This document shows positions 252-42,522 of a stretch of DNA of 43,368 bases, piece after piece. Location of the stretch: positions 1 through 43,368 of the IMG/VR virus record IMGVR_UViG_3300035670_000442; one strand, written 5' to 3'. Position 1 is the stretch's first letter. The number at the start of each line of letters is the position of its first letter. Under the pieces are notes generated by a model, which searched no databases, had not been told where the DNA came from, and saw only the letters and a program-made list of their open reading frames with translations. The DNA comes from a virus. The position numbers and the translations under genes are program-made.

Positions 252-387
252 AACCCTCGGAAACCAGTAGACCTAGCCGGGCTACCTGTGTATCTTTGAA
301 GACAAAACCGTAGGACTTCCCGATCCTACCCATGACCTTAGCGAGTTTTCCAAGCTCTCTATTGTACCGTTGTTTATCAGCGTCCAT
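10..387 (-). CDS. hypothetical protein, 125 aa, spans the circle junction
   Basis: Small acidic protein of unknown function; no family recognised. The start is well supported: ATG at 387 is preceded by an excellent ribosome site, AGGAGG with short spacing. The start lies 106 nt inside the 3' end of the dNMP kinase-like gene, an unusually long same-strand overlap. Its stop overlaps the start of the adenine methyltransferase gene once the genome is closed (copy at 43127). Much of the gene lies inside the 251-bp terminal repeat, so the right end of the window carries a second, 5'-truncated copy. Confidence 0.75.
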   Translation of the reverse strand: MDADKQRYNRELGKLAKVMGRIGKSYGFVFKDTQVARLGLLVSEGYRVAFAGFQELHKNPDGTVALLTTQMSQDGLWAFEDDDHLQGVLEDVSEQSQEPWDAMAYIGLVKDQGLLVFGSLACGVE

Positions 388-860
388 GCTCCTCCTAGGA
401 GTCTCTCGTAACTATCGATGAACCTGTCCGACTCCAGCGTAACGGAGGAGTCTCTATACAACCTGATCACCCAAGGGTTGTCGAAACTTTCCCGGATGTA
501 CTGGGCCTCACAGTCCTTACGGACATCCGTAAAAACCGGGATTACCCCGGAGTCCTGGGCTACCCTGACATCCTCCTTTGACCTCTCCATGCCCATCCGG
601 GGATCCATCAAGGGCCAGGCGTGGTAACAGCGTACCATCAGGTCTAAAAAAGTGACCCCAGGTAGACCGGGAACCTCAGAAGCCCTGGTGCCAGGATCTT
701 CCATTGAACCCTCGGGTAACACGTACATATACTCTAGTACCCTTTTCATTGGCCCGCTAAACTTTATATTTACCAAGGGAACTTCTAAGGTTTTGCAAAG
801 GACACCAAAGGTAGTATCCTTGCCCGATCTTGATGGCCCCAGGATAACAATCGCATCCAT
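282..860 (-). CDS. deoxynucleoside monophosphate kinase-like P-loop protein
   Basis: 192 aa. The N-terminus holds a clear P-loop (GPSRSGKDT, residues 8-16), as in phage dNMP kinases of the adenylate kinase fold, which phosphorylate dNMPs to supply DNA precursors. A later D-V-R segment (FTDVRKDCEAQ) resembles the region after the core strand in that family, and the C-terminal INNGTIESL resembles its usual ending. The start codon overlaps the DNA polymerase stop (TAATG) and has AGGAG just upstream, so the two genes are translationally coupled. The 3' end overlaps the next gene by 106 nt. Class is moderately certain; nucleotide specificity cannot be told. Confidence 0.75.
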   Translation of the reverse strand: MDAIVILGPSRSGKDTTFGVLCKTLEVPLVNIKFSGPMKRVLEYMYVLPEGSMEDPGTRASEVPGLPGVTFLDLMVRCYHAWPLMDPRMGMERSKEDVRVAQDSGVIPVFTDVRKDCEAQYIRESFDNPWVIRLYRDSSVTLESDRFIDSYERLLGGAWTLINNGTIESLENSLRSWVGSGSPTVLSSKIHR

Positions 861-3559
861 TAGTATCTCCTGTATTTTCCTAACTCTATCCCGGGTAGAC
901 CGGCTATGTCAACTGGGGTCAGGCAGTAGCCCAAAGGTAGGCCCTCGGGCTGGCTCGGGGTGATCTGGGGATCTAATGGATCCTTGCGTAGCACATGGTC
1001 AACATCGATCTCTGGGAACCATGCGATCGCCTGGGGAATCCCATCAAGACCAAAGGCGTCAATAAAGGCTGCCCGGGTGTACAGGTGTGCCCACTGGAGC
1101 CCTAGGGCTGCTTTGGCTATGTGTTCCTTTAGGCATACAAGGCGGATCTCGTCATGGATGGTCATCAGTAGCCTACCCCTGACCCCTAGGAGATCCCAGA
1201 AGTGTATTGTTAGGATTACCAGGTAGTCTCTGAAGTCAGCCCCCGAGGTCTGGATAACCCAGTTTTTACGGGTAGTGGAGTAATCGAAAACACCGGCCAG
1301 AGCCCTGGTCATCTTGGCCTGGGTCAGTGGTGATCTGGGAACCTTGGCATTGGCTATTTTGGCCATAGCGTTAAAGGCCTCGGAAAACAGACCACCTGTG
1401 TAACCCTCGCCATAGTCTGACCGTTCCCCTTTGAAGGCCTTTAGGTAGGCATCGGTCATCCTTTCAGCCTCGGACTCATCCAGGGTACCCTGGGACTTCA
1501 ATAGGTAGCTTTTGGCCCCATTGAATCCCAGGCCATAGATAGCCCCGTAGTTCAGGTTCTTCGCCAGATCCCGACTTATCCCGGCGTTCTGGGCTACCTT
1601 GGAATGGAGGTCAGACCCGTCCGACTTATCACCCACCAGGGTCACCAGTCCCGCCGGTGTAGCCCCACAGTACCCATAGGTACTATCAGCGATCGCCCCA
1701 GCCAGCCAGGCCTCCTGGGATGCCACGTCAGCCCCTATGATCACGTAGCCAGGTGGTGCTTGCACCATGGATTTTAGCTCGGTACCCACCCGGGTTTTCT
1801 TAGGGTTCGGTAATACCTGCCAGAGGTTGTCGGCGCACCTACGGGTTACTGTACCCGTGACTGTAATCCTTGGGATGACTACAGGGAACCCCTCGGGTTC
1901 CTCGGATTTAATGGCGTCAACCCGAGACTCAAGGGACTTCCAGTTTACCAGGGACATCACGTTAGATACTATCTCGCTAAAGTCCTCCGGGACTGCCAGG
2001 GTGCCTTCCTCGAACCGCTTAACGTAGCCCTTGATGAACACCCCAGTTACCCGTTTCCCCCGTTCCTCTGGGTGCGGTAAGGGTCTCCCATCAGCCTTAA
2101 ACCTATCATCCTCCCAGTAGATCTCATGACCATCCCAGGTAGCCCCTAAGACCAGCGGAACCCAACGGGCACCTATGGACACCTCGCCTAGTTTGCGATA
2201 CCAAGCGGGCAGCCCTAGAGTCTTCCCCGATCTCCCAGGAGTCCAGTCTAGGCTCTGGAGTCGCCTGGGTAAACCCCGGGTAAAACCCTGAGTAGACTGG
2301 TCAACCCAGGCAGCCCTGGAGGCCCTCGGGTGATCCTTGGAATCCTCCACTATACCCTTAAGGGTATCCAGGTACCTATAGGCTAACTGGGTGGCCAGGG
2401 CCTCCAGGGCCTCCAGGGTAGGCCCCATGGTCTCCTGGGCTACCCTCCGGGCATTGTCAGCATAGCCCGGGAACCGCTCGGGGCTCATGGGCAGCCAGGC
2501 AGAGCCTAGGGCTATCTGGGCTGCTTGAGAGACCTTAGTGGGCTGATGGTTAGCCCACTCAAACCAAAGATGCCTGAAGATCTTAAAGGTGGCCAGGACA
2601 TCCTTGGCACAGTAGGACAGGACATCACCCATAATCTCTTTGACCCCTGGGCTGTAGGCCCATAGGCCCTCAGGGACTCTACGGGTCATCCATATGCGCC
2701 CGTCCTGGGGCATGGATCGCCTGGGCTCTTCTTCACCCTGGACATGCATCAGGAATCCCGGGTCAGAATGCCAGCCGTTTTGTACGATGATGTCCCGGAC
2801 GCCTTTGTCCAAAGGTTCTCCCAGGTAGAACTGGCTTAAGGCATCCAGGGACTTATCCCCGGTTTCCCTTAACCAGGGCATAGCATCGGCCATCCTAGGA
2901 CACTTAAGGTACTCTTTATAGACCCCGCGTTGCTGGTTAGTGTAGCCGCGAACAGCCATCCAGGCAGCCATGGTGTCAAACCACCGGTTGCCGGATTCAG
3001 CCTGGAGGTACTCAGCGGTTACAAAGGAGCGATCGTAGGGTGCGTTGTGCCCGATGCCCAGGAAAGGCCCTGGAACATCCAAGGTGGTCTTAAGGGGCTC
3101 ATCAGCTACCCAGGCATACCAGTGTCCTTTTAAGGGGTCTAGGAGGACGCAGCAAGCTGGTCTCCAGTCATTGTCCCCGTTGACCTTGACGGTCTCAAAG
3201 TCAATGACGGAGTTTGACCCGGGTTGTGGGGCTCCAGACTCCCAGGAACCATCCCAGGTATACCAACCGGGTTCAGTGGGGAACCACCCAGGCATCTCCG
3301 GGATGTCCGCGTTAGCTATGGCCTCCAGGGTGTCCAGGGTGGCTTGGTAGGGCCTCAGGGCATTAACCAGGGTGTCTTCCAGGGACTCCGGGGGTAGGCC
3401 TAGGTCTACGGGTTCTGAGCGGTCTATGACCTCAGACAACCCGGCCTTGGCCCAGGCCTCAGAGAACCGCTGTAGTTCCCGCTTGGTCATGGTGCTATTG
3501 TCGTAGCCTAAAATGTGCCTCGTGACTTCCGAGGGCATCAGCTTGATCTTCGGTTCCAT
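860..3559 (-). CDS. family A DNA polymerase resembling mitochondrial Pol gamma
   Basis: 899 aa replicative polymerase with a 3'-5' exonuclease. Exo motifs: DFET (D120, E122), HNAPYD (N172, D176), YCAKD (Y316, D320). Polymerase motifs: A at GADVASQE (D611), B at RDLAKNLNYGAIYG (R663, K667, Y671), C at IHDE (H802-E804). Compared with animal Pol gamma as I remember it, long stretches agree: RVGTELKSMVQAPPGY, GSDLHSK, NYGAIYG, NWVIQTSGAD, and a shared tail around IDVDHVLRK and TPSQP. The region between exo and pol also aligns (PAWYRKL, ATWDG). Ordinary phage family A enzymes (T7-like) and bacterial Pol I do not share these blocks. A ribosome site (AAGGA) precedes ATG 3559 and a promoter lies at 3580-3608. 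It heads a tightly overlapping operon with the dNMP kinase-like gene. Confidence 0.97.
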   Translation of the reverse strand: MEPKIKLMPSEVTRHILGYDNSTMTKRELQRFSEAWAKAGLSEVIDRSEPVDLGLPPESLEDTLVNALRPYQATLDTLEAIANADIPEMPGWFPTEPGWYTWDGSWESGAPQPGSNSVIDFETVKVNGDNDWRPACCVLLDPLKGHWYAWVADEPLKTTLDVPGPFLGIGHNAPYDRSFVTAEYLQAESGNRWFDTMAAWMAVRGYTNQQRGVYKEYLKCPRMADAMPWLRETGDKSLDALSQFYLGEPLDKGVRDIIVQNGWHSDPGFLMHVQGEEEPRRSMPQDGRIWMTRRVPEGLWAYSPGVKEIMGDVLSYCAKDVLATFKIFRHLWFEWANHQPTKVSQAAQIALGSAWLPMSPERFPGYADNARRVAQETMGPTLEALEALATQLAYRYLDTLKGIVEDSKDHPRASRAAWVDQSTQGFTRGLPRRLQSLDWTPGRSGKTLGLPAWYRKLGEVSIGARWVPLVLGATWDGHEIYWEDDRFKADGRPLPHPEERGKRVTGVFIKGYVKRFEEGTLAVPEDFSEIVSNVMSLVNWKSLESRVDAIKSEEPEGFPVVIPRITVTGTVTRRCADNLWQVLPNPKKTRVGTELKSMVQAPPGYVIIGADVASQEAWLAGAIADSTYGYCGATPAGLVTLVGDKSDGSDLHSKVAQNAGISRDLAKNLNYGAIYGLGFNGAKSYLLKSQGTLDESEAERMTDAYLKAFKGERSDYGEGYTGGLFSEAFNAMAKIANAKVPRSPLTQAKMTRALAGVFDYSTTRKNWVIQTSGADFRDYLVILTIHFWDLLGVRGRLLMTIHDEIRLVCLKEHIAKAALGLQWAHLYTRAAFIDAFGLDGIPQAIAWFPEIDVDHVLRKDPLDPQITPSQPEGLPLGYCLTPVDIAGLPGIELGKYRRY

Positions 3560-3579: not shown

Positions 3580-3608
3580 AGTATGGACTGGTTGACCGGC
3601 CAGGTCAA
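3580..3608 (-). promoter_or_regulatory. promoter of the polymerase operon
   Basis: Leftward TTGACC (3608-3603), 17-bp spacer holding GGTCAACC, then CATACT (3585-3580). It overlaps the 3' end of the PP-loop gene and fires into the polymerase gene. Confidence 0.65.
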
Positions 3609-4378
3609 CCCAGGGAACAGGTTATACATCCTGACGTATCTAAGGCTTCGGTCTCACTGTCAGAAGCTCCTGGTTCTAACCACTCTTCCCGGTATTCCCG
3701 TAAAGTGAGATACCTAATAGTACCACCATTGGTCTTCCTTAAGAAAGGTCTAGTTCCTGGCAACTCTCTATGTAACTTTTCTTGTTTTTCCTCAAACATC
3801 TTGTATGTCTCTGGGGAGGATTGCCAGAGCTGCCTATAGTGTGCTAGACCCGCTTTACCACAAAAACCACCACAGTTGTTATGCTGGAGCCCCCAATCAT
3901 ACAGCCTCGGTCTGGAGATACCTGATCTGGCTAAAACTTCATCTGCGTACTGACGGGTGTCTATGTAGTCTTCTGCGAGTGGAGCTACTAGTGGTATTGA
4001 AAAGTGTTTTCTAGCCCTTTCTAGGCGATCTTGCTCATCATAAGAGAACTCGCAAACAACTACATCATATTGGGGGTTTTCTTTAATAAACCTATGCGTT
4101 GGCTCTCTTTTTAACACTCTACTACATGGGTCTATACGGGTGTTCACCAGGTATTTCTCTTTATAGAATACATCCCATATGTTAAGACCCTGGTCTAATG
4201 TGATTAACCCATAACCCAGATAGCGCTGGGTCTCTTTTAAGAACCTGTAAAGATCAGGATCTTCTGATCTTGTATCTGTGAATAGTAGAGTGACATCCTT
4301 TTCGCCTTTCTGCTTTAGCAGGCTGGCTGCTAAAAAACTACCCATTCCGCCAGAATAAAGAACTAAAAACTTTGTCAT
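3605..4378 (-). CDS. PP-loop (adenine nucleotide alpha-hydrolase fold) ATPase
   Basis: 257 aa. SGGMGSF at residues 9-15 is the PP-loop that binds ATP in PAPS reductases, tRNA thiolases, QueC and DndC. Cysteines cluster at NNCGGFCGKAG in the middle and CITC at the C-terminus, which could bind metal. The middle of the protein resembles phage 'PAPS reductase-like' proteins. The reaction is not predictable: nucleotide or DNA base modification, sulfur transfer and tRNA editing are all possible. The gene is clearly more AT-rich than its neighbours and lacks their CCTGG/CCCGGG-rich codon usage, suggesting recent acquisition. The ribosome site at ATG 4378 is weak; it follows the nuclease gene by 3 nt and is probably cotranscribed with it. 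Confidence 0.8.
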   Translation of the reverse strand: MTKFLVLYSGGMGSFLAASLLKQKGEKDVTLLFTDTRSEDPDLYRFLKETQRYLGYGLITLDQGLNIWDVFYKEKYLVNTRIDPCSRVLKREPTHRFIKENPQYDVVVCEFSYDEQDRLERARKHFSIPLVAPLAEDYIDTRQYADEVLARSGISRPRLYDWGLQHNNCGGFCGKAGLAHYRQLWQSSPETYKMFEEKQEKLHRELPGTRPFLRKTNGGTIRYLTLREYREEWLEPGASDSETEALDTSGCITCSLG

Positions 4379-4381
4379 AAT

Positions 4382-4936
4382 CTACACGGGTAAACGCCAG
4401 TATTTAATGGACGGTACGGGTAGCTCGATGAAACCACAGATGGTATCCCGGCCACCCTGTGTTTCTAGGGTTTTTGCTGACAGGCCCCTGATCCTGATAA
4501 AGCCCTTTTGTTCTACCCAGGCGTTAAGGGTGCCTTTGTTGTACAGGGTGGCTTTTTGCCCCTGGAGTATTAGGTACTGCTGGGCTTGACCGGTCAGGCC
4601 CCAGGACGGATACCAGCCCTCCGGGCTCCAGCCCTTAGGCATATCCAAGGACGCCAGGTAGGTTAACCAGGGCTGGCACCATGGCGTAGATGACCAGTGC
4701 TGGGTAGTCAGCTCTAGGTATATGTTCCCGTACTTTAACCCGGAGTGCTGGGCCTTGATGGACGTTGAGATACCATCGAGGTACATATCAATGTCCTGGG
4801 TGATGTCTTCCAGGGCCTCAGAGGGTGTTACATCATGCCCTAAGCTCCTCAGGTGTTCTAAGATCCTCTCTTCATCCCTGAGGCCTCCTAGGTGGTACTG
4901 GTAGGGCCTTTTAGCCTTTGATGCTCTATGTTCCAT
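4382..4936 (-). CDS. PD-(D/E)XK-type nuclease-like protein
   Basis: 184 aa. Residues 22-75 read as a small nuclease core: helix (EERILEHLRSLGHDV), then DITQDIDMYLDGIS, a strand with SIKAQ (K61, Q63) and NIYLEL (E75). An acidic residue followed by a strand with K-x-Q is the usual layout of phage PD-(D/E)XK nucleases and resolvases. It may process recombination or packaging intermediates or degrade host DNA; the substrate is not visible. No good Shine-Dalgarno site precedes ATG 4936, which follows the 56-aa gene by 32 nt, so translation may depend on the upstream gene. The family call rests on motif pattern only. Confidence 0.55.
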   Translation of the reverse strand: MEHRASKAKRPYQYHLGGLRDEERILEHLRSLGHDVTPSEALEDITQDIDMYLDGISTSIKAQHSGLKYGNIYLELTTQHWSSTPWCQPWLTYLASLDMPKGWSPEGWYPSWGLTGQAQQYLILQGQKATLYNKGTLNAWVEQKGFIRIRGLSAKTLETQGGRDTICGFIELPVPSIKYWRLPV

Positions 4937-5610: not shown

Positions 5611-7374
5611 CTATGGGATGGCCCTGATGATCGACTGGATATTGCCCATGGTCTCCCTGAGGATCTCCCCTGGTTTGGAGTCCTCTAGGATGCCCTGGTA
5701 GTGGTCTACCAACCCAGGGATACTCCGGCGTTCCTGTGACCACTGGGGTTGATAGTGGGATGATCTCTGGGGATACCCGAAACCCTTGGAGGACTTGAGT
5801 TCACCGATGATGATCCCAAAGGCTTTCTCGATGGACTTAACAGACTTCATCTGCCCAAGCTCATGTAGCTTAGGCCTCAGGTAGGACAGGCAGTCCGGGC
5901 TAAGGTGCTCTAGTAGAACCCCACTGAACTCCCTAGGGACTTCCCGCCGGTGTACCTGTACGGTCACCAGGGCCAACAGGAGATCCGGAGAAAAGTCCAT
6001 GCGACCGTAGCGATCCAAGAGCTCCTGGCGATCCCTGGGTTTCTCTTCGGCGATCGACATGGCGACCAAGTGGGCACAGGCAGCCGGTAACTCATCGGCG
6101 TGTTTTAGGGACACGTCGATCCTGAAGTTCTCCCGGTTACCCTTGATGATACCCTCCAGCTTACTGGAGTCTATCCCGGCTATCTGTGAGCCCTCCAGGG
6201 TGACCCCAGCGGCGTCCAGGAAGCGGTCTAGGGAACAACGGAACAACCACATGGCCAGGAGGATAGGATCACCCAGTCGGTTCCAATAGGGTAAGATCCG
6301 GTAGTCCTGATCGGATCCCCAACGTTCCTGGAGTTCCCAGGAGTTATAAGTATCCAGCTGGTTCAGTCGGGACAGCATCCCGGAGTCCATCCCTATGTAG
6401 TGGGAGTAGTCTGATAGGTTGGTAGCCCCTAAGACCACCGTCACGGACTCCACTGTGTCCGCGTTTTCTCCCTTTTCCTCTACCTTGACCTCTCCATTGG
6501 AGGTAACCATTTTGAGCCTGGGATCGTGGAACAACCGGCGTTGAAAGTCACCCGTGAGGTCGTCGATCATGGCCATATCAGACAGGGCGATCGGTCGCCA
6601 CCCAAACTGATTCAGGTTGGTGTTAATCTGGGTATGGGTATACCCAAGATTGTCCATGGCTTTCTGGAGGTAGCCCAGAAAGGTCGACTTACCCATACCA
6701 GCCTCCTGACCCACCATAATCCCATAGGATCTAAAGGTATGGATCAGTTCACCCTCTAGGGTTATCCCCTTACTTGGGCCAGCCATGATACGCCCCAGGA
6801 TCAGCATAAGCTGGTCAGCCTCAGCGTCAGGAAATAGGGTCAGTAGATCCCTGGCATCTATCCGCCGGACTTCCTCGGGAAACCAATGGACGGGTGGACA
6901 ATATTTGAACGCCCCAGGTAGACCGGTCAACGTCCGGGGTGTCGCTACCGTTCTCTTGATACCGTTGATTACCACTCGGGTCTTGGCCCTGGGGTCACCT
7001 AGGCGATCCTTGAAGTCTAGCAAGATACCTCCGATCACCCGGCGTGACGCCTTGGAATCTGTGGCGTTCCCTAGGTTGTACAGGGTGTTGTCTACGAAGC
7101 CAATGAACGCTGACCGGTCTAAGGGGTCACGGTGGTCTAGGGCCTTCCAACGGTACCAACCAGGATCAGGAGTTAGACCCGGGTAGACCTGTGAATCCTT
7201 GGTGTAGACCGTGTAGCCGCACCATGGGTCACCTGAGGGTACCATGATGTAGCCAAGGGTCTTAGCCTTGGCCTCCAGGGTCTCCAGGATCTCCGATACG
7301 GCAACTACCCCGAACTCGGTATCATCACGGGTATCTGTGGTTTCTCTGTGCATATCAGTACCGTATTTGTTCAT
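5611..7374 (-). CDS. SF3/D5-type replicative helicase (ATPase)
   Basis: 587 aa from ATG 7374. Walker A GQEAGMGKST (222-231), Walker B MIDD (269-272) and a sensor-like VVLGATN (about 313-319) match superfamily 3 helicases such as phage/plasmid D5-like proteins. TSNGEVKVEEKG between them matches the usual SF3 segment before motif C. The N-terminal 190 residues show no primase motif I can recognise, so priming is unexplained. A GTG two codons upstream (7380) is possible, but GAGG is better spaced for ATG 7374. A terminator lies just upstream (7389-7413), so expression probably needs read-through. Confidence 0.85.
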   Translation of the reverse strand: MNKYGTDMHRETTDTRDDTEFGVVAVSEILETLEAKAKTLGYIMVPSGDPWCGYTVYTKDSQVYPGLTPDPGWYRWKALDHRDPLDRSAFIGFVDNTLYNLGNATDSKASRRVIGGILLDFKDRLGDPRAKTRVVINGIKRTVATPRTLTGLPGAFKYCPPVHWFPEEVRRIDARDLLTLFPDAEADQLMLILGRIMAGPSKGITLEGELIHTFRSYGIMVGQEAGMGKSTFLGYLQKAMDNLGYTHTQINTNLNQFGWRPIALSDMAMIDDLTGDFQRRLFHDPRLKMVTSNGEVKVEEKGENADTVESVTVVLGATNLSDYSHYIGMDSGMLSRLNQLDTYNSWELQERWGSDQDYRILPYWNRLGDPILLAMWLFRCSLDRFLDAAGVTLEGSQIAGIDSSKLEGIIKGNRENFRIDVSLKHADELPAACAHLVAMSIAEEKPRDRQELLDRYGRMDFSPDLLLALVTVQVHRREVPREFSGVLLEHLSPDCLSYLRPKLHELGQMKSVKSIEKAFGIIIGELKSSKGFGYPQRSSHYQPQWSQERRSIPGLVDHYQGILEDSKPGEILRETMGNIQSIIRAIP

Positions 7375-7388
7375 GGGCACCTCGGGAA

Positions 7389-7424: not shown

Positions 7425-7443
7425 AGCTATCCTCGGGATAGCT
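7425..7443. repeat. hairpin at the 3' end of the 262-aa gene
   Basis: AGCTATCC-TCG-GGATAGCT, an 8-bp stem overlapping the stop codon at 7442. No T-run of its own. It may protect the mRNA end or act with the adjacent terminator. Confidence 0.6.
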
Positions 7444-8230
7444 AGAAGGTAAACACGGGTAACTTGGATTCAGCCCGGGTAGTAAAGACCACTGGGATGA
7501 TAGGGTAACCCTGGGCTGATGTCTCAGTGGATTCCTTGACCTCTAGGTCTGCCGGTTCATCAGGGGTAATGACCGGGTTACGGGCTAACTTACGGTTAAT
7601 AGCCGTGTTGGCCTTAAACCAACCATGGCCCTCGATCTCGATCTTAAACTTGGCCTTTGACTCACCCTTGAAACTATTGTCCTCGTATCCGGTAACCTTG
7701 TAATCCCCAGGCTCCAGAGTGCTAAGGCTAGCCGCCGGAGTAAAGGTCTCTGACAGCAGCTTGGCCAGCTCTGGATAACCTTTCTTGAGGGCCCGCTTGA
7801 CCTCAGACAACCCAGCTTTTTCCTGACCTTCCTCTGGCTTTTTAAGGGCCAGAGAGAACTGGGGATACTGGTAGGTGATACCCGTGAGGTCTGACAAGTC
7901 GAACTCGATGACCACTTGCTTACGGTCTCCCTCAGACTCTTCGGGCTTAACCTTGAGGTACTCCAGGGGATACAGTCCACGGCCCCAGCACAGGCAAGGG
8001 ATGCCCTCTTTATTATTGGCAACATAGGGACTGTAGACCATAGGGCCAGAGCGTCCCTGGGTGACCTTAAAGGTGTAACCGGTTTCCTCAAAAGGAACGC
8101 CGATAGCTTCAGCTACCGCCTGGATGTCCCCTAGGAACTCAGCCATGACCGGGTGGTCATTTGGAATCAGTGTGGTCTCTTGGGTGTACTCAGCGTTTTC
8201 TAGGAGAGTTTGCAGCTTTAGGTTTAGCAT
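7442..8230 (-). CDS. hypothetical protein, possible ssDNA-binding/replication accessory
   Basis: 262 aa, no family recognised. It is hydrophilic and beta-rich in the C-terminal half (GDYKVTGYEDNSFKGE, KFKIEIEG), with charged loops and an end in LPVFTF. Its place between nuclease, exonuclease, methyltransferase and helicase genes fits a single-strand DNA-binding or replication accessory protein, but it lacks the acidic aromatic tail usual for T7 gp2.5 or SSB, so this is inference from context. AAAGGA precedes ATG 8230. It is the fourth gene of the unit started at 8598-8627 and is followed by an intrinsic terminator, suggesting high, separate expression. Confidence 0.7.
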   Translation of the reverse strand: MLNLKLQTLLENAEYTQETTLIPNDHPVMAEFLGDIQAVAEAIGVPFEETGYTFKVTQGRSGPMVYSPYVANNKEGIPCLCWGRGLYPLEYLKVKPEESEGDRKQVVIEFDLSDLTGITYQYPQFSLALKKPEEGQEKAGLSEVKRALKKGYPELAKLLSETFTPAASLSTLEPGDYKVTGYEDNSFKGESKAKFKIEIEGHGWFKANTAINRKLARNPVITPDEPADLEVKESTETSAQGYPIIPVVFTTRAESKLPVFTF

Positions 8231-8662: not shown

Positions 8663-9403
8663 CTATACCCGGTAATCCACCAGGTCTATCCCGGTACCAT
8701 GGCGTCCCAAGGTGTCTGCCACCTTGGGTACAGTCCCTAGGCCACAGAAGGGATCTAGAACCCAGCCACCCTCGGGAACCAGGGACAATATGAGATCCTG
8801 GGCTAGCCTGGATGGCATAGGGCAAGGGTGACCCGGGTCGGATATGGGGTTATACCGGAGAACCCGGGAACCCAGGTGGTCATCCCAGTAGGCCTCACGG
8901 TACCTACGCCCACCCGAGGGCTTCCTAAGGTACACCAGCCACTCCAGGTTACTGGGTGGCCTATCGGATCGCACAGGGCGTCCCGTGGGCTTCTCCCATA
9001 CCCAGAAGTCCCGTAGGATCATCTTGTTAAGGTACCGGGGCAAATAGTGGGCCAAGGGTAACAGGGCTTTCTCGGGGTGACCAGGAACCAATGCCCTACG
9101 GTGTTCCAAGGTTTTACCCTTGGTTTCCCTGAGGTTACGCCTGATGGCGCTGTAGTTGTTCCAGGTGTCCCCTAGATTAACTACCATGGCACCACCGGGA
9201 ACCAGTAGGTCACTGGTAGCCCGGAGGTAACGCCCCAGGCGTAACAAGTAGACCTCTGGGGTTCTCTCTAGGCCTAGCTGGTTCCAGCCGTGACCGTAGT
9301 CTAACTTTCCCCAGTAGGGCGGGCTGGTGATAACCGCGTGATACTGGGGTTCTAGGGTTTTACAGAAAGCCAGGGCGTCCCCGATCAAGATGGTCTGGGA
9401 CAT
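8663..9403 (-). CDS. DNA methyltransferase, beta class (N4-cytosine or N6-adenine type)
   Basis: 246 aa. The catalytic TSPPYW (residues 26-31) comes first and the AdoMet-binding DPFCGLGT near the C-terminus, the circular order of beta-class amino-methyltransferases. TSPPYW favours N4-cytosine. No cognate nuclease is nearby, so it is an orphan enzyme, probably protecting phage DNA from host restriction or replacing host methylation. Start ATG 9403 overlaps the exonuclease stop (TGATG). Confidence 0.88.
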   Translation of the reverse strand: MSQTILIGDALAFCKTLEPQYHAVITSPPYWGKLDYGHGWNQLGLERTPEVYLLRLGRYLRATSDLLVPGGAMVVNLGDTWNNYSAIRRNLRETKGKTLEHRRALVPGHPEKALLPLAHYLPRYLNKMILRDFWVWEKPTGRPVRSDRPPSNLEWLVYLRKPSGGRRYREAYWDDHLGSRVLRYNPISDPGHPCPMPSRLAQDLILSLVPEGGWVLDPFCGLGTVPKVADTLGRHGTGIDLVDYRV

Positions 9404-10320
9404 CAGGCCACCTCAGGGTAGTATAGGTCTGAATCAGGGTCAAAAGGGCGAATAGCGGGCTGTAAACCGCAAGCCCTCAGATAGTCCAGGGCCTCATCAG
9501 GATCAGTCACCAGGGGCTCCTGGGGCTCACTCAGCCAATGCCGGATAACCCCAGATACCTGGGTATTTTCCCAGAGCCTGTGACCCTCGGGTGGACTCAG
9601 GAGATCGATGACCTCTAGGGGTGACCCGGGTGGTAAGTTGTCTGACTTATCGCCCTGGGATGCCTTGATCTTCCAGAGATCCCTAGGGGTCTCTATGGTG
9701 GTCTTTATCCGCCGGAGGCACCACTGGTTGATAGGCTCCATGGTGTCCCGGAGACGTGGAAAGTACCCGTACAGGCAGAACCATGAGACCCACGGGGAAA
9801 CCAGACCCATCCAGTCGGAATCCACGGTAGCCAGGATTATCCGGTTATCCGGGAAGTCCCGGGAAATCACGGTGACAGCGGCGGCCAGGTCATCGGCTTC
9901 GTAACCCGTTAGCCTCAGAACCCGGGCACCCTTGGCCTGGAGGGTTTCATAGGTCTGTTCTTTGGCCTTGGTCAAGGTACGCTTGGGTAGCTTCCGGCCA
10001 GCTTTGTAATGGATAGGCCCATGGGGTTTCTCGGTAATCCGAGGCACCTTATGCCGGGATAACTTACGGGTGACCACTGACCCATAGACCGAGGGCCTTA
10101 ACAGGTACTCAGATCGCCAGTAAGGTTTAGCATCACCCACGCAGATGATCTGGAAGTCCCCAGGTTTGACCAGAGACCCCAGCCAATGCCCAGACAACAT
10201 CCAGGCCAGGTTGGCAGACACAGCGCCTTTACGAGCATCCGGGGGTAGCCCTCCGGCGGCTTCGATAGAGTTATGGATCTGGTGTACAACCACGGACAGA
10301 TCAACAACAACAGTGATCAT
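9403..10320 (-). CDS. 5'-3' exonuclease, FEN/T5-type
   Basis: 305 aa. Metal-binding acidic residues occur in the usual places: VVDLS near the N-terminus, GYEADDLAA mid-protein, VDSDW, then the helix-hairpin-helix-like KASQGDKSDNLP. Phage enzymes of this family remove RNA primers and act in recombination and replication alongside a family A polymerase lacking its own 5' exonuclease, as here. AGAGGA precedes ATG 10320; an upstream in-frame non-ATG start (10350) lies within the promoter and is unlikely. The gene is coupled to the methyltransferase. Confidence 0.9.
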   Translation of the reverse strand: MITVVVDLSVVVHQIHNSIEAAGGLPPDARKGAVSANLAWMLSGHWLGSLVKPGDFQIICVGDAKPYWRSEYLLRPSVYGSVVTRKLSRHKVPRITEKPHGPIHYKAGRKLPKRTLTKAKEQTYETLQAKGARVLRLTGYEADDLAAAVTVISRDFPDNRIILATVDSDWMGLVSPWVSWFCLYGYFPRLRDTMEPINQWCLRRIKTTIETPRDLWKIKASQGDKSDNLPPGSPLEVIDLLSPPEGHRLWENTQVSGVIRHWLSEPQEPLVTDPDEALDYLRACGLQPAIRPFDPDSDLYYPEVA

Positions 10321-10340
10321 AGTGAATCCTCTTTTAACCC

Positions 10341-10370
10341 ATGGTAGCACGGGTTAACCGGGCAGGTCAA
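10341..10370 (-). promoter_or_regulatory. promoter of exonuclease-methyltransferase unit
   Basis: Leftward TTGACC (10370-10365), spacer with CCCGGTTAACCCG, -10 TACCAT (10346-10341). It overlaps the end of the 99-aa gene. Confidence 0.6.
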
Positions 10371-11386: not shown

Positions 11387-11416
11387 AGTATAGCCTGGGT
11401 ATACCTGGGGCGTCAA
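11387..11416 (-). promoter_or_regulatory. promoter reading through the iteron-like cluster
   Basis: Leftward TTGACG (11416-11411), spacer with CCCAGGTATACCCAGG, -10 TATACT (11392-11387). The transcript would have a leader of about 235 nt containing all the repeats before the HTH gene. Confidence 0.7.
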
Positions 11417-12828
11417 CCTGGGCTCCTAGGGATACCCGCTGGCCTACCCTGGGCGTCCCAGAGAGCCTGGATGATCCCATAGATCTGCTTTCCTAAGGGA
11501 TACTGGCGACCAGTGTACCCCATGGTGGTCTTGATGGTAGCCGACGGGTTCACCCCTGTACTTAGATCAAAATATACAGCCTGGTAGTGCTGGGCTACCC
11601 CTTGATTTAGTTCCGGAACCTCCTGGAACTCGCCTGGAACTTCCTTGGAACTCGCCTGGAACTTCTGAAAAGTTCCCACGGAGTTCCAAGGGGTTCCAGG
11701 TTGGTTCCCGGGTGGTTCCGGGGCTGTATCCCTTACGGGGTGGTCGGTTCCGCCTTTTGGGGTACTTTTGGCCTCCAGGGGCCTTTTTTGGGGGCTTTTT
11801 GGGGCCTTGGGAACTTGGGGGATCTGTGCGGGTAGATCCTCTACCATACACTGACGTTTACCAGGTTCGATCTGATACCCGTGCTTGTCAGCCCAGGCCT
11901 TCCCTAGGCTACCCAGGCGGATAAAGGTGCAGTTCTCCCTAAGGCTTCCCTCACCCTCGATCCCTAGGGCCTTGACCTCAGCACCCTGAACCAGCATGAT
12001 CAGCCGGATACCAACCTTGCGGGCCTCGCGTAGGATTACCTTGATACAAGCTGACACCCCAGGGAGTTTCCCGTAGGCGTTGAACTCATCCAGGATCACG
12101 TTGACCACGGGGAACCGGTCTGTTCCTAGGTCTAGGTCACCCTGCGACCTCCTGGAGTACCGGTAGTCCATCTCAGCCACTAGGGAAGCCAGAAGCTGGC
12201 AGACAGTACAGTCCTGACCGTTCAGGATCTCCCCAAAGGGCACTGGAGGTTCTCCAGTCTCCACTAGTTCTCTCTTGACTTCCCGGGTCTCATAGGGTTC
12301 AGCGGAAACCCCAAAGTTACGCCCAGTATTGATCACTAGATCGGCCCCAGGGTAATCCCCGGGTTCATAGTGGGGTGCTGATACCAGGGTAGTCCCTCCG
12401 AGTAGCCCGGTCATCCACTCAGCCAGGGTAGACTTACCGGTACCCGTTGGCCCCAGGAGCATCATATGGGCATACTTGTCTCTATGGGTCTCAAGGTCAG
12501 ACCAGTCAAACCAGGGAACCTCTGGGGTATCCTGGGCGGCCTCCGGTAGGGCCTTGGTAGGCCCTGGGTTCATCAAGGACTGTAAGTGTAGATTCTGGTA
12601 GGCGTTATCCTCTATGTCTCGGGTATCCTGGAGCCTCATGGCGGCTTCCCGGGATATGCTGGACAGTACCAAGGACGATCCAGCCAGCCCTAGGGACACT
12701 GTAGCAGCCACCCGTTTTACCCAGGGGTCTAAGGACAGCGTAAAGGCCAGGGACAGCATAGATACACCGGTGACCACCCCAGAGGCTACCAGGGTGGCGT
12801 AACGGATCTTTAGTAGCTGGTAACTCAT
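11413..12828 (-). CDS. membrane-anchored FtsK/VirD4-like DNA translocase ATPase
   Basis: 471 aa from ATG 12828 (GAGGTGG upstream; ATGA overlap with the previous gene; an in-frame GTG nine nt upstream is less likely). Two transmembrane helices in residues 8-58, Walker A GPTGTGKST (126-134), Walker B VNVILDEFNAYG (about 240-252), then a Pro-rich linker and a small C-terminal domain (about 420-471, GVNPSATIKTTMGYTGRQ) that looks like a winged-helix DNA reader. This order resembles FtsK and conjugative coupling proteins that pump DNA at a membrane. It is odd in a lytic-looking phage and may serve segregation of a plasmid-like state, DNA entry or exclusion. Confidence 0.8.
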   Translation of the reverse strand: MSYQLLKIRYATLVASGVVTGVSMLSLAFTLSLDPWVKRVAATVSLGLAGSSLVLSSISREAAMRLQDTRDIEDNAYQNLHLQSLMNPGPTKALPEAAQDTPEVPWFDWSDLETHRDKYAHMMLLGPTGTGKSTLAEWMTGLLGGTTLVSAPHYEPGDYPGADLVINTGRNFGVSAEPYETREVKRELVETGEPPVPFGEILNGQDCTVCQLLASLVAEMDYRYSRRSQGDLDLGTDRFPVVNVILDEFNAYGKLPGVSACIKVILREARKVGIRLIMLVQGAEVKALGIEGEGSLRENCTFIRLGSLGKAWADKHGYQIEPGKRQCMVEDLPAQIPQVPKAPKSPQKRPLEAKSTPKGGTDHPVRDTAPEPPGNQPGTPWNSVGTFQKFQASSKEVPGEFQEVPELNQGVAQHYQAVYFDLSTGVNPSATIKTTMGYTGRQYPLGKQIYGIIQALWDAQGRPAGIPRSPG

Positions 12829-13202
12829 AGTGGCCACCTCATAGCACCCAGGGACAGCCCCAGGAGCGTCATAGAGACCCGGTAGGCAATCACAGGTAAC
12901 ACCGTGGGCTTTCTGAGGAACACCAGGGTACAGATAGCCCCAGCGGTCAATAGGGTTAGCCCGACAGCCACCCGGACAGCCAGAAACGGAAAAAACAACA
13001 GGTCGCCCAGCAACACTGAAGCGGCGATCTGGGTGACCACGTCATTCAGGACACCCAAGGGGTCACTGGGGAGATACAGGTGAGACTCCCAGGCCCTTAG
13101 GAAGTTCTCCGGGCGATCGGTGACCCGGTTGGTATCCAGGGTGATAGGGACATCTTGACCCCATAGACCCCTGACGATCACGGTAGGTTTAGAGTCAGCC
13201 AT
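12825..13202 (-). CDS. membrane protein, 125 aa
   Basis: A hydrophilic N-terminus (about 45 residues), then about three hydrophobic segments (VTQIAASVLLGDLLFFPFLA, VAVGLTLLTAGAICTLVFL, VIAYRVSMTLLGLSLG). Function unknown. Its stop overlaps the FtsK-like start (ATGA), suggesting the two act together at the membrane. Confidence 0.75.
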   Translation of the reverse strand: MADSKPTVIVRGLWGQDVPITLDTNRVTDRPENFLRAWESHLYLPSDPLGVLNDVVTQIAASVLLGDLLFFPFLAVRVAVGLTLLTAGAICTLVFLRKPTVLPVIAYRVSMTLLGLSLGAMRWPL

Positions 13203-24400: not shown

Positions 24401-24946
24401 ATGACCGTTAACACCTATGGGGCTCTGTTTAGCCCCACCAAAATCACCCCAGCTATCCGTAGGGCTGCCGGTAAGGCCAGGGCATACGGAGAATACCGTA
24501 TCAAGGCCAGGACACCCATCCGGACGGGGCTGCTACATAGATCCTGGCAGGTGGATTTAGAGGGCTATGGGGTCAGGGTACGCAACAATACGCCCTATGC
24601 CATTTATAACGAGATGGGTACCCGGTACATGAGGGCTAGACCCATGGTCGCCCCAACCATACCAGAGATGCAAGCGGTATTCAAGACCGAGATCGGTCGG
24701 GAAGTCGGTAGATCCCTGGGTAACAAGATCCTAGGTGAACTCCGGTCTATCACGGCCCCAGGAGGCTACCGAGGCCTGACCGAGGGACGCCGATATATCA
24801 AGGGCAACCGAGGGTTCAGAACTAACCCGGATGTCATGCTGGAGTATACTGAACTGGCCAAGTTAAACCGGAGGTTCGGTAAAGCATTCCCAGCATTCCC
24901 GGGTCAGCTCCAGAGTCCTAAGGCCAACAGGGTAGGTGCCCGATGA
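24401..24946 (+). CDS. HK97 gp10-like head-tail/neck protein
   Basis: 181 aa, basic. [15 protein letters not shown] and [17 protein letters not shown] match the HK97 gp10 / tail-completion family (TGxLrxSw ... YaxxvE.Gt ... .ArPfl). These proteins sit at the neck. Overlaps the fibre gene by ATGA. Confidence 0.8.
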
Positions 24947-26565
24947 TTAACCGCGTTTCTAGACTACCAGGGCCTCAGGGGCCTCAGGGGCCTCAGGGTG
25001 ACCCAGGGCCTCAAGGGCCTCAGGGTCTCCAGGGTCTCCAGGGTGACCCAGGGCCTCAGGGTCTCCAGGGTGACCCAGGGCCTCAGGGTCTCCAGGGTCT
25101 CCAGGGTCTCCAGGGTGACCCAGGGCCTCAGGGTCTCCAGGGTCTCCAGGGTCTCCAGGGTGACCCAGGGCCTCAAGGGCCTCAAGGGCCTCAGGGTCTC
25201 CAGGGTCTCCAGGGTCTCCAGGGTGACCCAGGGCCTCAGGGTCTCCAGGGTCTCCAGGGTCTCCAGGGTGACCCAGGGCCTCAAGGGCCTCAAGGGCCTC
25301 AGGGTCTCCAGGGTCTCCAGGGTCTCCAGGGTGACCCAGGGCCTCAGGGTCTCCAGGGTGACCCGGGGCCTCAAGGGCCTCAAGGGCCTCAGGGTCTCCA
25401 GGGTCTCCAGGGTGACCCGGGTACTACTGAGTTCTCAGGTCTTACTGACTTGGTTGCTACTGCTCTAACCAGCGGCAACAGCGGTAAGTCCATGGCGCTT
25501 ACGTGGGATAACACAGGGGAGACGCTGACGCTGACTCCTAGTCCGGTGTTTGACACTGTGACTATTGGGCAAAGTGTTGATGCTTCTGGAGTAAATACTG
25601 GTAAAGCTTTCCTCCCTAACTTTTACGCTAACACCAACAATGCACTTAGATTAGCCGGAGAACGGCTTCAGCACGGTAGCCGTATTCATAGCCTTACTGC
25701 GTCTACAGCGACTAACGCAGACAACGCTACAGGCTGGGATTACGATAACTTTGCTACCATCACGAACGGTCAGACTATAGAGTTTGATTTTACTGGGATT
25801 AGCTCAAATGGTTACACGTATTTAGGGGCGATAGACCTGATACTGGTGACAATGAGGTCTACGGGTGCTGTGTTGCCCTCGTCTATCTTTGTAGAGTACC
25901 GCAATAGCTCGAATGTTTGGGTGGCTATCGGTACAATGACCACGCCAGTTTACTCCAGCGGATCGGGTGCTCTTTATGTGCTGCAAAACCCCATCGGGCA
26001 GCAAACTTTTATCAGAGGGATGCGGTTTACCTTTACAGGTACAGGCACAATGTTGTGCGTTGCTACGGAATGGCACCCATCGAGAGCTTCAGCATCCGAT
26101 CCTGCAGAGTACATCCGCACATCCTCTCCCTCTCGCTTAAACGTTTACGCTCCATCCATTTGGTTGCGTGGTCAATCTTCATTCCCTCGAATCGAGATTG
26201 ATAGGGACGGGGGCTTTATCAGGGTAAATGCCGGGGGAGGGACACCAGGAATATCAACATTAGGTGGTGGGTTTTTGGAGGCAAACGCAACGACTCCGTC
26301 AACCTCAACAACTACTGGCGCTATACGTACGGCAGGCGGCATTGGATCCCAAGGTGCTGTTTACGCTGGTGGTGAAGTACAAGGTACTGAGTTTCGCATC
26401 GGTGGTACCAAGGTACTAGGAGCTAGGCAAACCGGATTTACCTTAGGCAGCGGTACTGAGGCCAAGGGTGCCATAGATGACACTACTATCACCCTTCAAG
26501 AGCTGGCCCAGCAGGTTATAGCCCTCAAGGCGGCCTTGGCAGCACACGGCATTATAGGGAGTTAA
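24943..26565 (+). CDS. collagen-like fibre protein
   Basis: 540 aa. Residues 10-160 are about fifty G-X-Y triplets (mostly GPQ, GLQ, GDP), which should form a trimeric collagen stalk. Residues about 165-500 are a beta-rich adhesin-like part, and the last 30 residues are helical ([17 protein letters not shown]), possibly a trimerisation end. The base composition of about 25440-26400 differs from the rest (more AT, fewer CCTGG words), so the head of the fibre looks imported. Likely a receptor-binding or neck fibre. Lengths of the repeat tract can vary in frame by slippage. Confidence 0.85.
24970..25422 (+). repeat. collagen-coding 9-bp repeat array
   Basis: Arrays of GGTCTCCAG and GGCCTCAAG-type units joined by GGTGACCCAGGG. 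Units are multiples of 9 bp and larger blocks recur exactly, so gain or loss of units keeps frame. All three forward frames and the reverse strand stay open across parts of it, a side effect of the repeat. Confidence 0.95.
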
Positions 26566-28724: not shown

Positions 28725-29930
28725 ATGACGCTTAACCTGACCCCTCGGACTGTACCGGGGACTTACATTAACGAGACCCAAGCGGGGGCCATCCCGGCGT
28801 CCCTGGCCACCCATGACACCGTGTACATGCTGGGTACTGCCAGCCAAGGCCCGGAGAACCAAAAAACGCTGGTGGTAGACCTGGAGGACTTTGATAATGT
28901 CTTCGGGAATACTGCCCCTTCCCGGAAAGCAGTAGCGCTGTTTTTCGCCCAGCGTACTGGGACGGGTCTATACTTCCTGAATGTGGCGGCCGCCGGGGCC
29001 TACCCCACAGTAGCAGAGATCACCACGGCCCTCGGTACCTTTGTTACCGAAGATGCCCAGGGTTTTCTGATTTGCCCTGAGTTCTACCAGGCCACGGGTA
29101 CCGGTGGTTCCCTGGAAGGTCTCCATGATGAGGTGGCCTTGGCCTGTGAGGCTCACTGTGCAGATACCCGGTTTTACTGGGTGCACCTGGTGGACTGTAG
29201 CCCCACGGTAGCCACGGCGGCTAATGTGGTCACGGCTTCCGAGGCTGAGCGGGCTGCCCTAGCTTCCCCCCTGGGACACTCAGCCTATTATCTACCCTAC
29301 TTGGTGTTAGCCGATGACTCCCAGGTAGCGCCTAGCCCTGCGATCGCAGGGGTGGCTGTACGTCGCTTCCGTACCGAGGGCTACCGTCAGCCACCCGCTG
29401 GGGTCAAGTACCCCATCTATGGGATCTCAGGGGTCTCCAAAGAGATCACCGATAAAACCCAGGGCGAACTGAACCCCGACGGGATCAATGTGATCCGCCG
29501 GTTGCCCCGTAAAGGCGTGGTCATCTGGGCAGCCCGGACACTGTCCACCCTACCTCTCTACCGCCACCTAAATGGCCGGGTAGTCCTAAACGTCCTAGCG
29601 GGTACCTACCGGAGTGCCTTTGATGAACTACTCCTGAGTGCTGTTGATGGCCTCGGGGAAGTTTTTGGCGTTCTCAAGGCCACAGCGGTTGCCATCCTAG
29701 AACCCCTGAGGTTAGCTGGGGCTATCTACGGGTCAACCCCCGAGGAAGCCTACCGGGTGGTCTGCGATCGCACCAACAACCCCGGGATCCTACTGGATGC
29801 TGGTGAGGTCAACCTAGACATCTATGTCAAGGTGTCACCTACCCTGGAGTTCCTGAACATCCGGCTAAACCGGGTTTCTCTGACCACTGACCTCAACACC
29901 CTGTTAGAGCCTAGCACCCTAGGGGCCTAG
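28725..29930 (+). CDS. contractile tail sheath protein
   Basis: 401 aa. PGTYINETQAGAIPASLATH at the start, a central variable domain, then GVAVRRFRTEGYRQPPAG, and the C-terminal INVIRRLPRKGVVIWAARTL typical of phage sheaths, with a final domain (ILLDAGEVNLDIYVKVSP) that exchanges strands between subunits. This makes the phage a myovirus. The leader contains two tandem TTAGGGA-type boxes, TTAGGGACACC and TTAGGGAAAACC. Confidence 0.93.
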   Translation: MTLNLTPRTVPGTYINETQAGAIPASLATHDTVYMLGTASQGPENQKTLVVDLEDFDNVFGNTAPSRKAVALFFAQRTGTGLYFLNVAAAGAYPTVAEITTALGTFVTEDAQGFLICPEFYQATGTGGSLEGLHDEVALACEAHCADTRFYWVHLVDCSPTVATAANVVTASEAERAALASPLGHSAYYLPYLVLADDSQVAPSPAIAGVAVRRFRTEGYRQPPAGVKYPIYGISGVSKEITDKTQGELNPDGINVIRRLPRKGVVIWAARTLSTLPLYRHLNGRVVLNVLAGTYRSAFDELLLSAVDGLGEVFGVLKATAVAILEPLRLAGAIYGSTPEEAYRVVCDRTNNPGILLDAGEVNLDIYVKVSPTLEFLNIRLNRVSLTTDLNTLLEPSTLGA

Positions 29931-41271: not shown

Positions 41272-42522
41272 ATGGATTTCCCCTTACATAAGGGACAACT
41301 GAAGGTATATCAGGATGGACACCGGTTTGTAACCCTGGTGGCCGGTAGACGCTTTGGAAAGACCAGGCTTGCCTTAACCCGGATCATCACAACCACCCTA
41401 GGGTTCCCTAGGGAGCCTGATCCGGTGTCCCCTGAGATCACCCTGGTTACCATGCCTACTCTACAGATGGCCAGGGGTATCATATGGACGCCGCTGGTCA
41501 ACCTCTTTGAGACCCCTGAGTTAGCCCCGGCGGTCAAGCGTATCGACCGGAGTAACTTCCGTATAGACCTATACGGAAAGCCCAGTATTCAGGTAGCTGG
41601 GGCCAACGACAAAAACGGTGATGGCCTTAGGGGAAAGCGGATCTGGTTTTTCCTGGGGGATGAGTGGCAAGATGTCAAGGCTACTGTGCTGGATGAAGTC
41701 ATCATCCCGGCCATGGCTGATACCCCCGGTTCAACCGCATTGTTCACGGGGACGCCCAAGGGACGCCAGAACCACTATTACCGGTTGTTCCAGAGGGCCG
41801 AAGAAGACCCCGAGCAATATTCAAGTTACCTGATGCCTACATGGGACAACCCCTTAATCCCTCGGGACTTTTTGGCCAGACAGAAACTACTGTTACCGCC
41901 CAGGGTCTATGATCAGGAGTTCGGGGCAAACTTCGTAAACTTCCCGGGCCAGTTTTACTCAGAGCTGACTGAGGACAACCTAGTAGACCGGTTACCTGAC
42001 GGGTTCACCCAGACGATCCTCGGGGTAGACTTTGGGGATGTCCATCCTGCTATAGTGGCCTTAGGTCTCCGGGGTAGCACCTGGTATTACCTGGAGGGCT
42101 GGCAGGGTAGTACAGGCCAGCCGATCCCAGAGCCTACCTTTCACCATCACATTAGGCGGATGGCTGCCCGCTGGAATCCCAGCGGTGTCTACTGTGACCC
42201 TAGCCGCCCATCAGCCATCCTGACCATCAGATCCCTAGGCCTACCCATGGCGATCGCAGGGTACAACAGGATCCTTGAGGGTATCACCCAGGTACACAGC
42301 CTGATCTACCAAAGACGCCTGAAGTTCCCAACGGAAAACCCTCAGGGTCTCCATGAGGGTTCAATCATTGGCCGGGATGCCTATGAACTTGCTTTATCTT
42401 ACCATGCCCGCACGGTTGACGGGGTGGCTACGGATAAGGTAGAGGATGGACAGGACGACCATATCCTAGATGCTATCCGTTACGCCCTGGCATTACCCGG
42501 TGGGTTACCAGGGGTAGAATGA
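41272..42522 (+). CDS. terminase large subunit
   Basis: 416 aa. Walker A AGRRFGKT (24-31), Walker B WFFLGDEWQD (about 125-134), coupling segment ALFTGTPKGRQNHYY, and a nuclease domain with GVDFGDVHPAI (about 248-258), CDPSRPSAI and DDHILDAIRYAL. It pumps and cuts DNA at the portal. Leader TTAGGGAAAA before ATG 41272. Confidence 0.95.
   Translation: MDFPLHKGQLKVYQDGHRFVTLVAGRRFGKTRLALTRIITTTLGFPREPDPVSPEITLVTMPTLQMARGIIWTPLVNLFETPELAPAVKRIDRSNFRIDLYGKPSIQVAGANDKNGDGLRGKRIWFFLGDEWQDVKATVLDEVIIPAMADTPGSTALFTGTPKGRQNHYYRLFQRAEEDPEQYSSYLMPTWDNPLIPRDFLARQKLLLPPRVYDQEFGANFVNFPGQFYSELTEDNLVDRLPDGFTQTILGVDFGDVHPAIVALGLRGSTWYYLEGWQGSTGQPIPEPTFHHHIRRMAARWNPSGVYCDPSRPSAILTIRSLGLPMAIAGYNRILEGITQVHSLIYQRRLKFPTENPQGLHEGSIIGRDAYELALSYHARTVDGVATDKVEDGQDDHILDAIRYALALPGGLPGVE

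Follow-up and report, generated by a model that had tools for sequence, protein, structure and literature searches.

We found that the window, by which we mean the whole 43,368-nucleotide stretch of viral DNA that was analysed, encodes a DNA polymerase that is very likely the replicative polymerase of a contractile-tailed cyanophage and a true member of the mitochondrial polymerase γ (Pol γ) subfamily, most likely working with partners encoded in the same gene cassette. A sequence-only reading had proposed a full-length Pol γ-type polymerase at this position, which is supported by Pfam and PDB matches, predicted fold and phylogenetic trees. The genes that enter the argument are the following:

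282-860, minus strand: dNMP kinase (phrog_139, E=6.4e-18; Pfam DNMK under cut-off)
860-3559, minus strand: Pol γ-type family A DNA polymerase (Pfam and PDB matches, AlphaFold2 model with Foldseek, aligned catalytic residues)
4382-4936, minus strand: 184-aa protein (tblastn 34% in L142, the contig called G012 below; zero Pfam or PHROG matches)
5611-7380, minus strand: DUF5906 primase-helicase (PF19263, E=6.9e-8; phrog_25243 DNA primase, E=4e-37)
7442-8230, minus strand: 262-aa cassette protein (homologues in the same place in contigs G012 and G001)
9403-10350, minus strand: 5'-3' exonuclease/flap endonuclease (PF02739, E=5.6e-9; phrog_26716, E=6.4e-32)
28725-29930, plus strand: tail sheath of a contractile tail (tblastn nearest in Leptolyngbya phage Lbo402-yong5, Anabaena/Nostoc phages and the S-TIM5 group)
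41272-42522, plus strand: terminase large subunit, TerL (tblastn nearest in Lbo402-yong5 at 40.7%, Microcystis phage Mic1 at 38.4% and Anabaena/Nostoc phages)

The polymerase frame begins with ATG, contains zero internal stop codons and encodes 899 amino acids, which are laid out as a 3'-5' exonuclease (~residues 70-390), a spacer and a polymerase core (~residues 550-870). The sequence strings quoted in the earlier reading, including those of the exonuclease-to-polymerase connector, were all found in collinear order, and its ORF coordinates were exact, although it gave no strand: PAWYRKL lies at residue 451, ATWDG at 473, RVGTELKSMVQAPPGY at 590, GADVASQE at 609, GSDLHSK at 648, NYGAIYG at 670, NWVIQTSGAD at 766, MTIHDE at 799, IDVDHVLRK at 851 and TPSQP at 867. 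The arginine said to follow MTIHDE exists, but it sits two residues past the glutamate (HDEIR) rather than adjacent to it. Alignment with human and yeast Pol γ recovered every catalytic residue of the claimed motifs, which comprise D120/E122 of exo I, D176 of exo II and Y316/D320 of exo III, together with D611 of polymerase motif A, R663/K667/Y671/Y675 of motif B, and H802-D803-E804 with R806 of motif C. The polymerase is intact in sequence, and both its exonuclease and its polymerase activity are predicted to be live. Domain order, these catalytic residues and the predicted fold are common to the window protein, human POLG and yeast Mip1, as are the RxGxELK block, GADVxSQE (SEE in yeast), NYGxIYG, HDExR and the C-terminal (I/V)D(I/V)D..RK..TPS. 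In contrast, overall identity to the human and yeast proteins is 28-31%, and the window protein lacks a counterpart of the human spacer stretch between aligned blocks, ~597-712.

Profile and structure searches assigned the protein to the Pol γ subfamily. Pfam matches were obtained for PF18136 (DNApol_Exo, the mitochondrial polymerase exonuclease domain; E=1.2e-22, 80.9 bits against a cut-off of 26.7) and PF00476 (DNA_pol_A; E=1.3e-12, 47.8 bits against a cut-off of 34.3). In a single-sequence phmmer search of the PDB, solely Pol γ chains were found at E<=1e-3 (best E=1.1e-76), which together with the Pfam E-values rules out a chance match. A profile built from nine phage members scored yeast Mip1 at 796 bits, over nearly the entire phage protein, and human Pol γ at ~737 bits, far above the top Pol I at 61.6 bits, which is the ranking that the earlier reading had anticipated. 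The AlphaFold2 model of the polymerase (pLDDT 78.8, pTM 0.80) behaved in the same way when compared with human POLG and other structures: Foldseek searches of the PDB with this predicted model placed human, mouse and yeast Pol γ at ranks 1-36 (TMq 0.68-0.80), and phage G20c and Aquifex Pol I and T7 polymerase came far below, at ~0.36-0.42.

Pol γ has been reported from cyanophages since 2011, in A-HIS1/2 and then in S-TIM5, S-CBWM1 and Mic1, and the Mic1 paper, which surveys these reports, already proposes that the phage enzymes and mitochondrial Pol γ have a common ancestor (PMC7156551). The statement that close phage relatives of the mitochondrial enzyme are poorly known is therefore mistaken. 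Among annotated phages, tblastn matched Mic1, S-CBWM1, members of the S-TIM5 group and A-HIS1/2, with identities of 26-31%, and megablast of window positions 1-24000 against known phages gave no match. Since a single-protein homologue search returned no loci, degenerate motif patterns were used for the locus search instead, and in IMG/VR such a pattern gave at least 119 candidate stretches. Among the matches listed, nearly all carry the Pol γ motif in an open frame, with few exceptions. One candidate (L015) was rejected as a different family A polymerase, and two matches of the pattern N-W-x-[IV]-Q ... H-D-E-x-R (L135 and L136) were rejected because they encode no relative. The full-length frames among the matches listed number 75, including four known phages and some duplicate copies, and form 11 groups at 60% identity; most of these frames belong to S-CBWM1-like or S-TIM5-like groups. 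The window has few close kin among them, namely the contigs G012 (46 kb), G001 (40 kb) and G013 (13.6 kb), with G007 more distant. The motif scan of a genome collection gave four matches, with Pol γ in L131 alone. This 50-kb contig (CALGUV010000039.1) carries a Pol γ of the L041 type and lies inside a MAG binned as Microbacteriaceae, so it may belong to a cyanophage and have been misbinned, or it may point to a non-cyanobacterial host. A PF18136 search of 386 cyanobacterial genomes detected no Pol γ, its seven weak matches falling in short frames of ~190-208 aa of another kind, which is in line with a phage gene rather than a host gene.

Interruptions were seen in several Pol γ genes. The polymerase of G012, the nearest relative (minus strand, ~7.4-10.7 kb), is one 1100-aa frame with a ~240-aa intein-like insert exactly in motif B (YG|C...GN|CIYG), a published intron lies in motif A of the Mic1 gene (L003, 9719-10132), and split frames, in or near motif A or B, occur in L137 (G011), L104, L133 and L083. 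Introns and inteins seem to have targeted the catalytic motifs of Pol γ repeatedly. The window polymerase is compact and uninterrupted, with 899 amino acids and motifs free of intron or intein, which makes it handy for expression and for comparison with human POLG.

Several lines of evidence bear on the host and virion. Tail sheath and baseplate J genes indicate a contractile-tailed phage. The cyanobacterial octamer HIP1, GCGATCGC, occurs 24 times in the window against 0.08 expected from shuffles, and the nearest TerL, sheath and helicase sequences are in cyanophages. The host is very probably a cyanobacterium on these sequence grounds, and the earlier description of the virus as a cyanophage is very probably right. 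The G012, G001 and G013 contigs share the window's polymerase lineage (100/100; 42-45% identity) and have related virion genes, whereas their G+C is lower and their HIP1 sites are fewer: one site was counted in G001 and seven in G012, and replication genes hold few sites. The uneven counts possibly mean that the hosts differ or that the phages have adapted to the sequence habits of their hosts. A structural gene at 24943-26565 contains a long collagen-like repeat.

The polymerase gene is embedded in a minus-strand cassette that consists, in order, of the 5' nuclease, a methyltransferase, the 262-aa protein, the DUF5906 primase-helicase, the 184-aa protein, a PAPS-reductase-like protein, Pol γ itself and the dNMP kinase. 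G012 and G001 keep the order of nuclease, 262-aa protein, helicase, Pol γ and kinase, and G007 has the nuclease, helicase and Pol γ in common with the window. The kinase and polymerase genes share a single base, where the start codon of the former meets the stop codon of the latter, and the kinase occupies the same place in G012 and G001. The 5' nuclease, a candidate for primer removal, is found in the same place in G012, G001 and G007. By our reading of its motifs, the DUF5906 protein contains a Walker A sequence (GQEAGMGKST), an acidic DD pair and a stretch, VVLGATN, that looks like SF3 motif C; its AlphaFold2 model was too poor for use (pLDDT 36.5). No family was identified for the 262-aa protein, which we guess to be a candidate ssDNA-binding protein from its position and from the acidic C-terminus, DLDNDVDF, of its G001 homologue. 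Conserved in G012 between helicase and polymerase is the 184-aa protein; the PAPS-reductase-like gene (3605-4378, minus strand) lies in the same interval of the window and is unmatched in the G012 and G001 pieces. A gene at 11413-12837 on the minus strand encodes a membrane-anchored ATPase of 474 aa that weakly matches T4SS DNA-transfer coupling proteins of the VirD4/TraD type, and one gene of Lbo402-yong5 carries the annotation 'DNA translocase coupling protein'; an ATPase that resembles such coupling proteins is unusual in a phage. Based on family and position, the DUF5906 protein would unwind and prime, Pol γ would extend and proofread as it copies the phage genome, the 5' nuclease would clear primers and flaps, the 262-aa protein may bind ssDNA, and the kinase would supply precursors for dNTP synthesis. 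We infer that the genome is replicated by Pol γ through the joint action of these partners.

To place the gene, we used three trees of phage members, each with just two eukaryotic sequences, those of yeast Mip1 and human Pol γ. These two were entered as joined aligned segments, which leaves out parts of the human spacer, and the clades that were tested were named after viewing a first tree. T7, Syn5, E. coli Pol I and a Yersinia phage polymerase served as outgroup in the larger tree, and long branches were removed in the reduced tree. Without an outgroup, the window grouped with G012, G001/G013 and G007 (100/100), and the mitochondrial sequences grouped with Mic1 and L046 (99/97). The outgroup-rooted larger tree gave a Pol γ clade (100/99) that again held mitochondria with Mic1 and L046 (98/97), and in the reduced tree mitochondria joined Mic1 (88/91) with the window lineage first to branch (85/87). 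A-HIS1/2, S-TIM5 and S-CBWM1 are, like the window, cyanophage Pol γ, and a DUF5906 primase is present in A-HIS1, S-TIM5 and S-CBWM1, but they form their own clade (99/99) at 26-31% identity to the window and lack the HDExR arginine. Mic1 (MN013189, ORF86/ORF85) and L046 share with the window the Pol γ family, HDExR, cyanophage affiliation and related TerL, but differ in an altered motif B (YSRRYNA/YSRRYSA) and in identity, which is ~30-32%; the Mic1 gene is also split by its intron whereas that of the window is unsplit. By alignment, the HDExR arginine is found in human and yeast, in Mic1/L046, in the window and in both G012 and G001/G013, but A-HIS2, S-TIM5, S-CBWM1, G007, T7 and Pol I lack it; it may be ancestral, since the trees do not make sisters of the two phage lineages that have it, those of the window and of Mic1. 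By these trees, the window and its few relatives form a third deep Pol γ lineage and the Mic1 lineage is the best candidate sister of mitochondrial Pol γ, whereas the branching order at the base of the family is unsure.

We considered whether the enzyme might instead be a phage polymerase of the T7-like or bacterial Pol I-like kind, with motifs that just resemble those of Pol γ. A general family A core is common to all of these enzymes, and weak NCBIfam matches to bacterial exonuclease and polymerase models occur far under their cut-offs. However, core identity of the window protein is 38.6% to human Pol γ, whereas its identities to T7 and E. coli Pol I are 20.8% and 23.4%, the PF18136 exonuclease and the fold ranking point the other way, and two trees set the Pol γ grouping apart from T7, Syn5 and E. 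coli Pol I (100/99 and 100/100). We rejected a T7-like or Pol I identity on trees and profile scores, and regard it as extremely improbable. The enzyme could also be an accessory or repair polymerase in a phage whose genome is copied by host enzymes. Phages of such size can depend on host replicases, but we think this reading improbable since this is the sole DNA polymerase recognised in the window and stands in a cassette with a primase-helicase, 5' nuclease and dNMP kinase. Lbo402-yong5 (OR994056), which has TerL, sheath, portal, capsid, baseplate J and hub genes related to those of the window, also argues against it: its polymerase likewise adjoins a dNMP kinase, but is a different family A enzyme, unmatched by the window protein, and its helicase fits SF2-type models. 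The pair looks like a replication-module swap of one replicase for another, and a swap of such kind has been described (PMC11348598).

Another question is how close the window gene stands to the mitochondrial enzyme itself. The window, human and yeast sequences have motif C (HDExR) and motif B (NYGxIYG) in common, and in the reduced tree the rejection of a clade of mitochondria plus window was no more than borderline (p-AU 0.0505), which would suit the closest phage relative and sister of mitochondrial Pol γ. Yet that clade was rejected in the larger tree (p-AU 0.0005), the mitochondrial sequences fell with Mic1/L046 in all three trees, and core identity to human Pol γ is ~49% for Mic1 and L046 but 38.6% for the window. 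We judge a sister relationship unlikely, since the Mic1-type phages are the group that both mitochondrial enzymes join. The earlier suggestion that the gene sits near the root of mitochondrial Pol γ holds in that it lies near the base of the whole family of phage and mitochondrial enzymes, but Mic1/L046 are nearer to mitochondria. The many residues that the window shares with animal Pol γ might also reflect a recent phage capture of a eukaryotic mitochondrial POLG gene, and the direction of transfer is unreadable from trees in which all phages as one clade is compatible with the data (p-AU 0.26 in the larger tree, 0.057 in the reduced tree). Such a capture is very improbable, as the phage diversity exceeds the yeast-human distance and comprises at least three deep lineages, both eukaryotes fall beside Mic1-type phages and away from the window, and the gene is a single uninterrupted ORF within a phage cassette. 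Taken together, we conclude that the window polymerase is another member of the published cyanophage Pol γ type but a separate deep branch of it.

The helicase partner also distinguishes these phages. Tblastn of the window helicase against the phage collection matched nine records, all of them Pol γ phages. PF19263 was found in 15 of 19 Pol γ phage records, the window counted, and a tblastn match in G001 brings the DUF5906-type gene to 16 of 19. No T7-type RNA polymerase (PF00940) or DnaB/Twinkle-type helicase (PF03796) was detected in any of the 19, with models that do match T7 and Syn5; many of these records may be fragments, so the absence is firm solely in the complete Mic1, S-CBWM1, S-TIM5 and A-HIS1. 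A primase and a 5' nuclease were noted as common to Pol γ cyanophages in the Mic1 paper (PMC7156551). In the literature that we searched, the absence of the T-odd partners from Pol γ phages was not found stated, and this observation is new here.

Replication enzymes of animal mitochondria are still described in recent papers as jointly derived from T-odd phages (PMC12230644, PMC6963530). The mitochondrial enzyme works with Twinkle, whereas the window polymerase is paired with a DUF5906-type helicase, and the presence of DUF5906 together with the absence of T7-type RNA polymerase and DnaB/Twinkle-type helicase argues against a single T-odd donor of the whole mitochondrial replisome. We tentatively suggest, as a possibility somewhat short of even, that this replisome is a mosaic from at least two phage donors, in which Pol γ would come from a cyanophage-centred, DUF5906-paired group with the window as an early-branching member, and Twinkle and the RNA polymerase would come from T-odd phages. 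The phage enzymes nearest to Pol γ do not come from T-odd phages but belong to at least three deep lineages in cyanophage-like viruses with a different helicase, which means that the single-donor idea can be tested directly with a denser sample of Pol γ from phages and protists.
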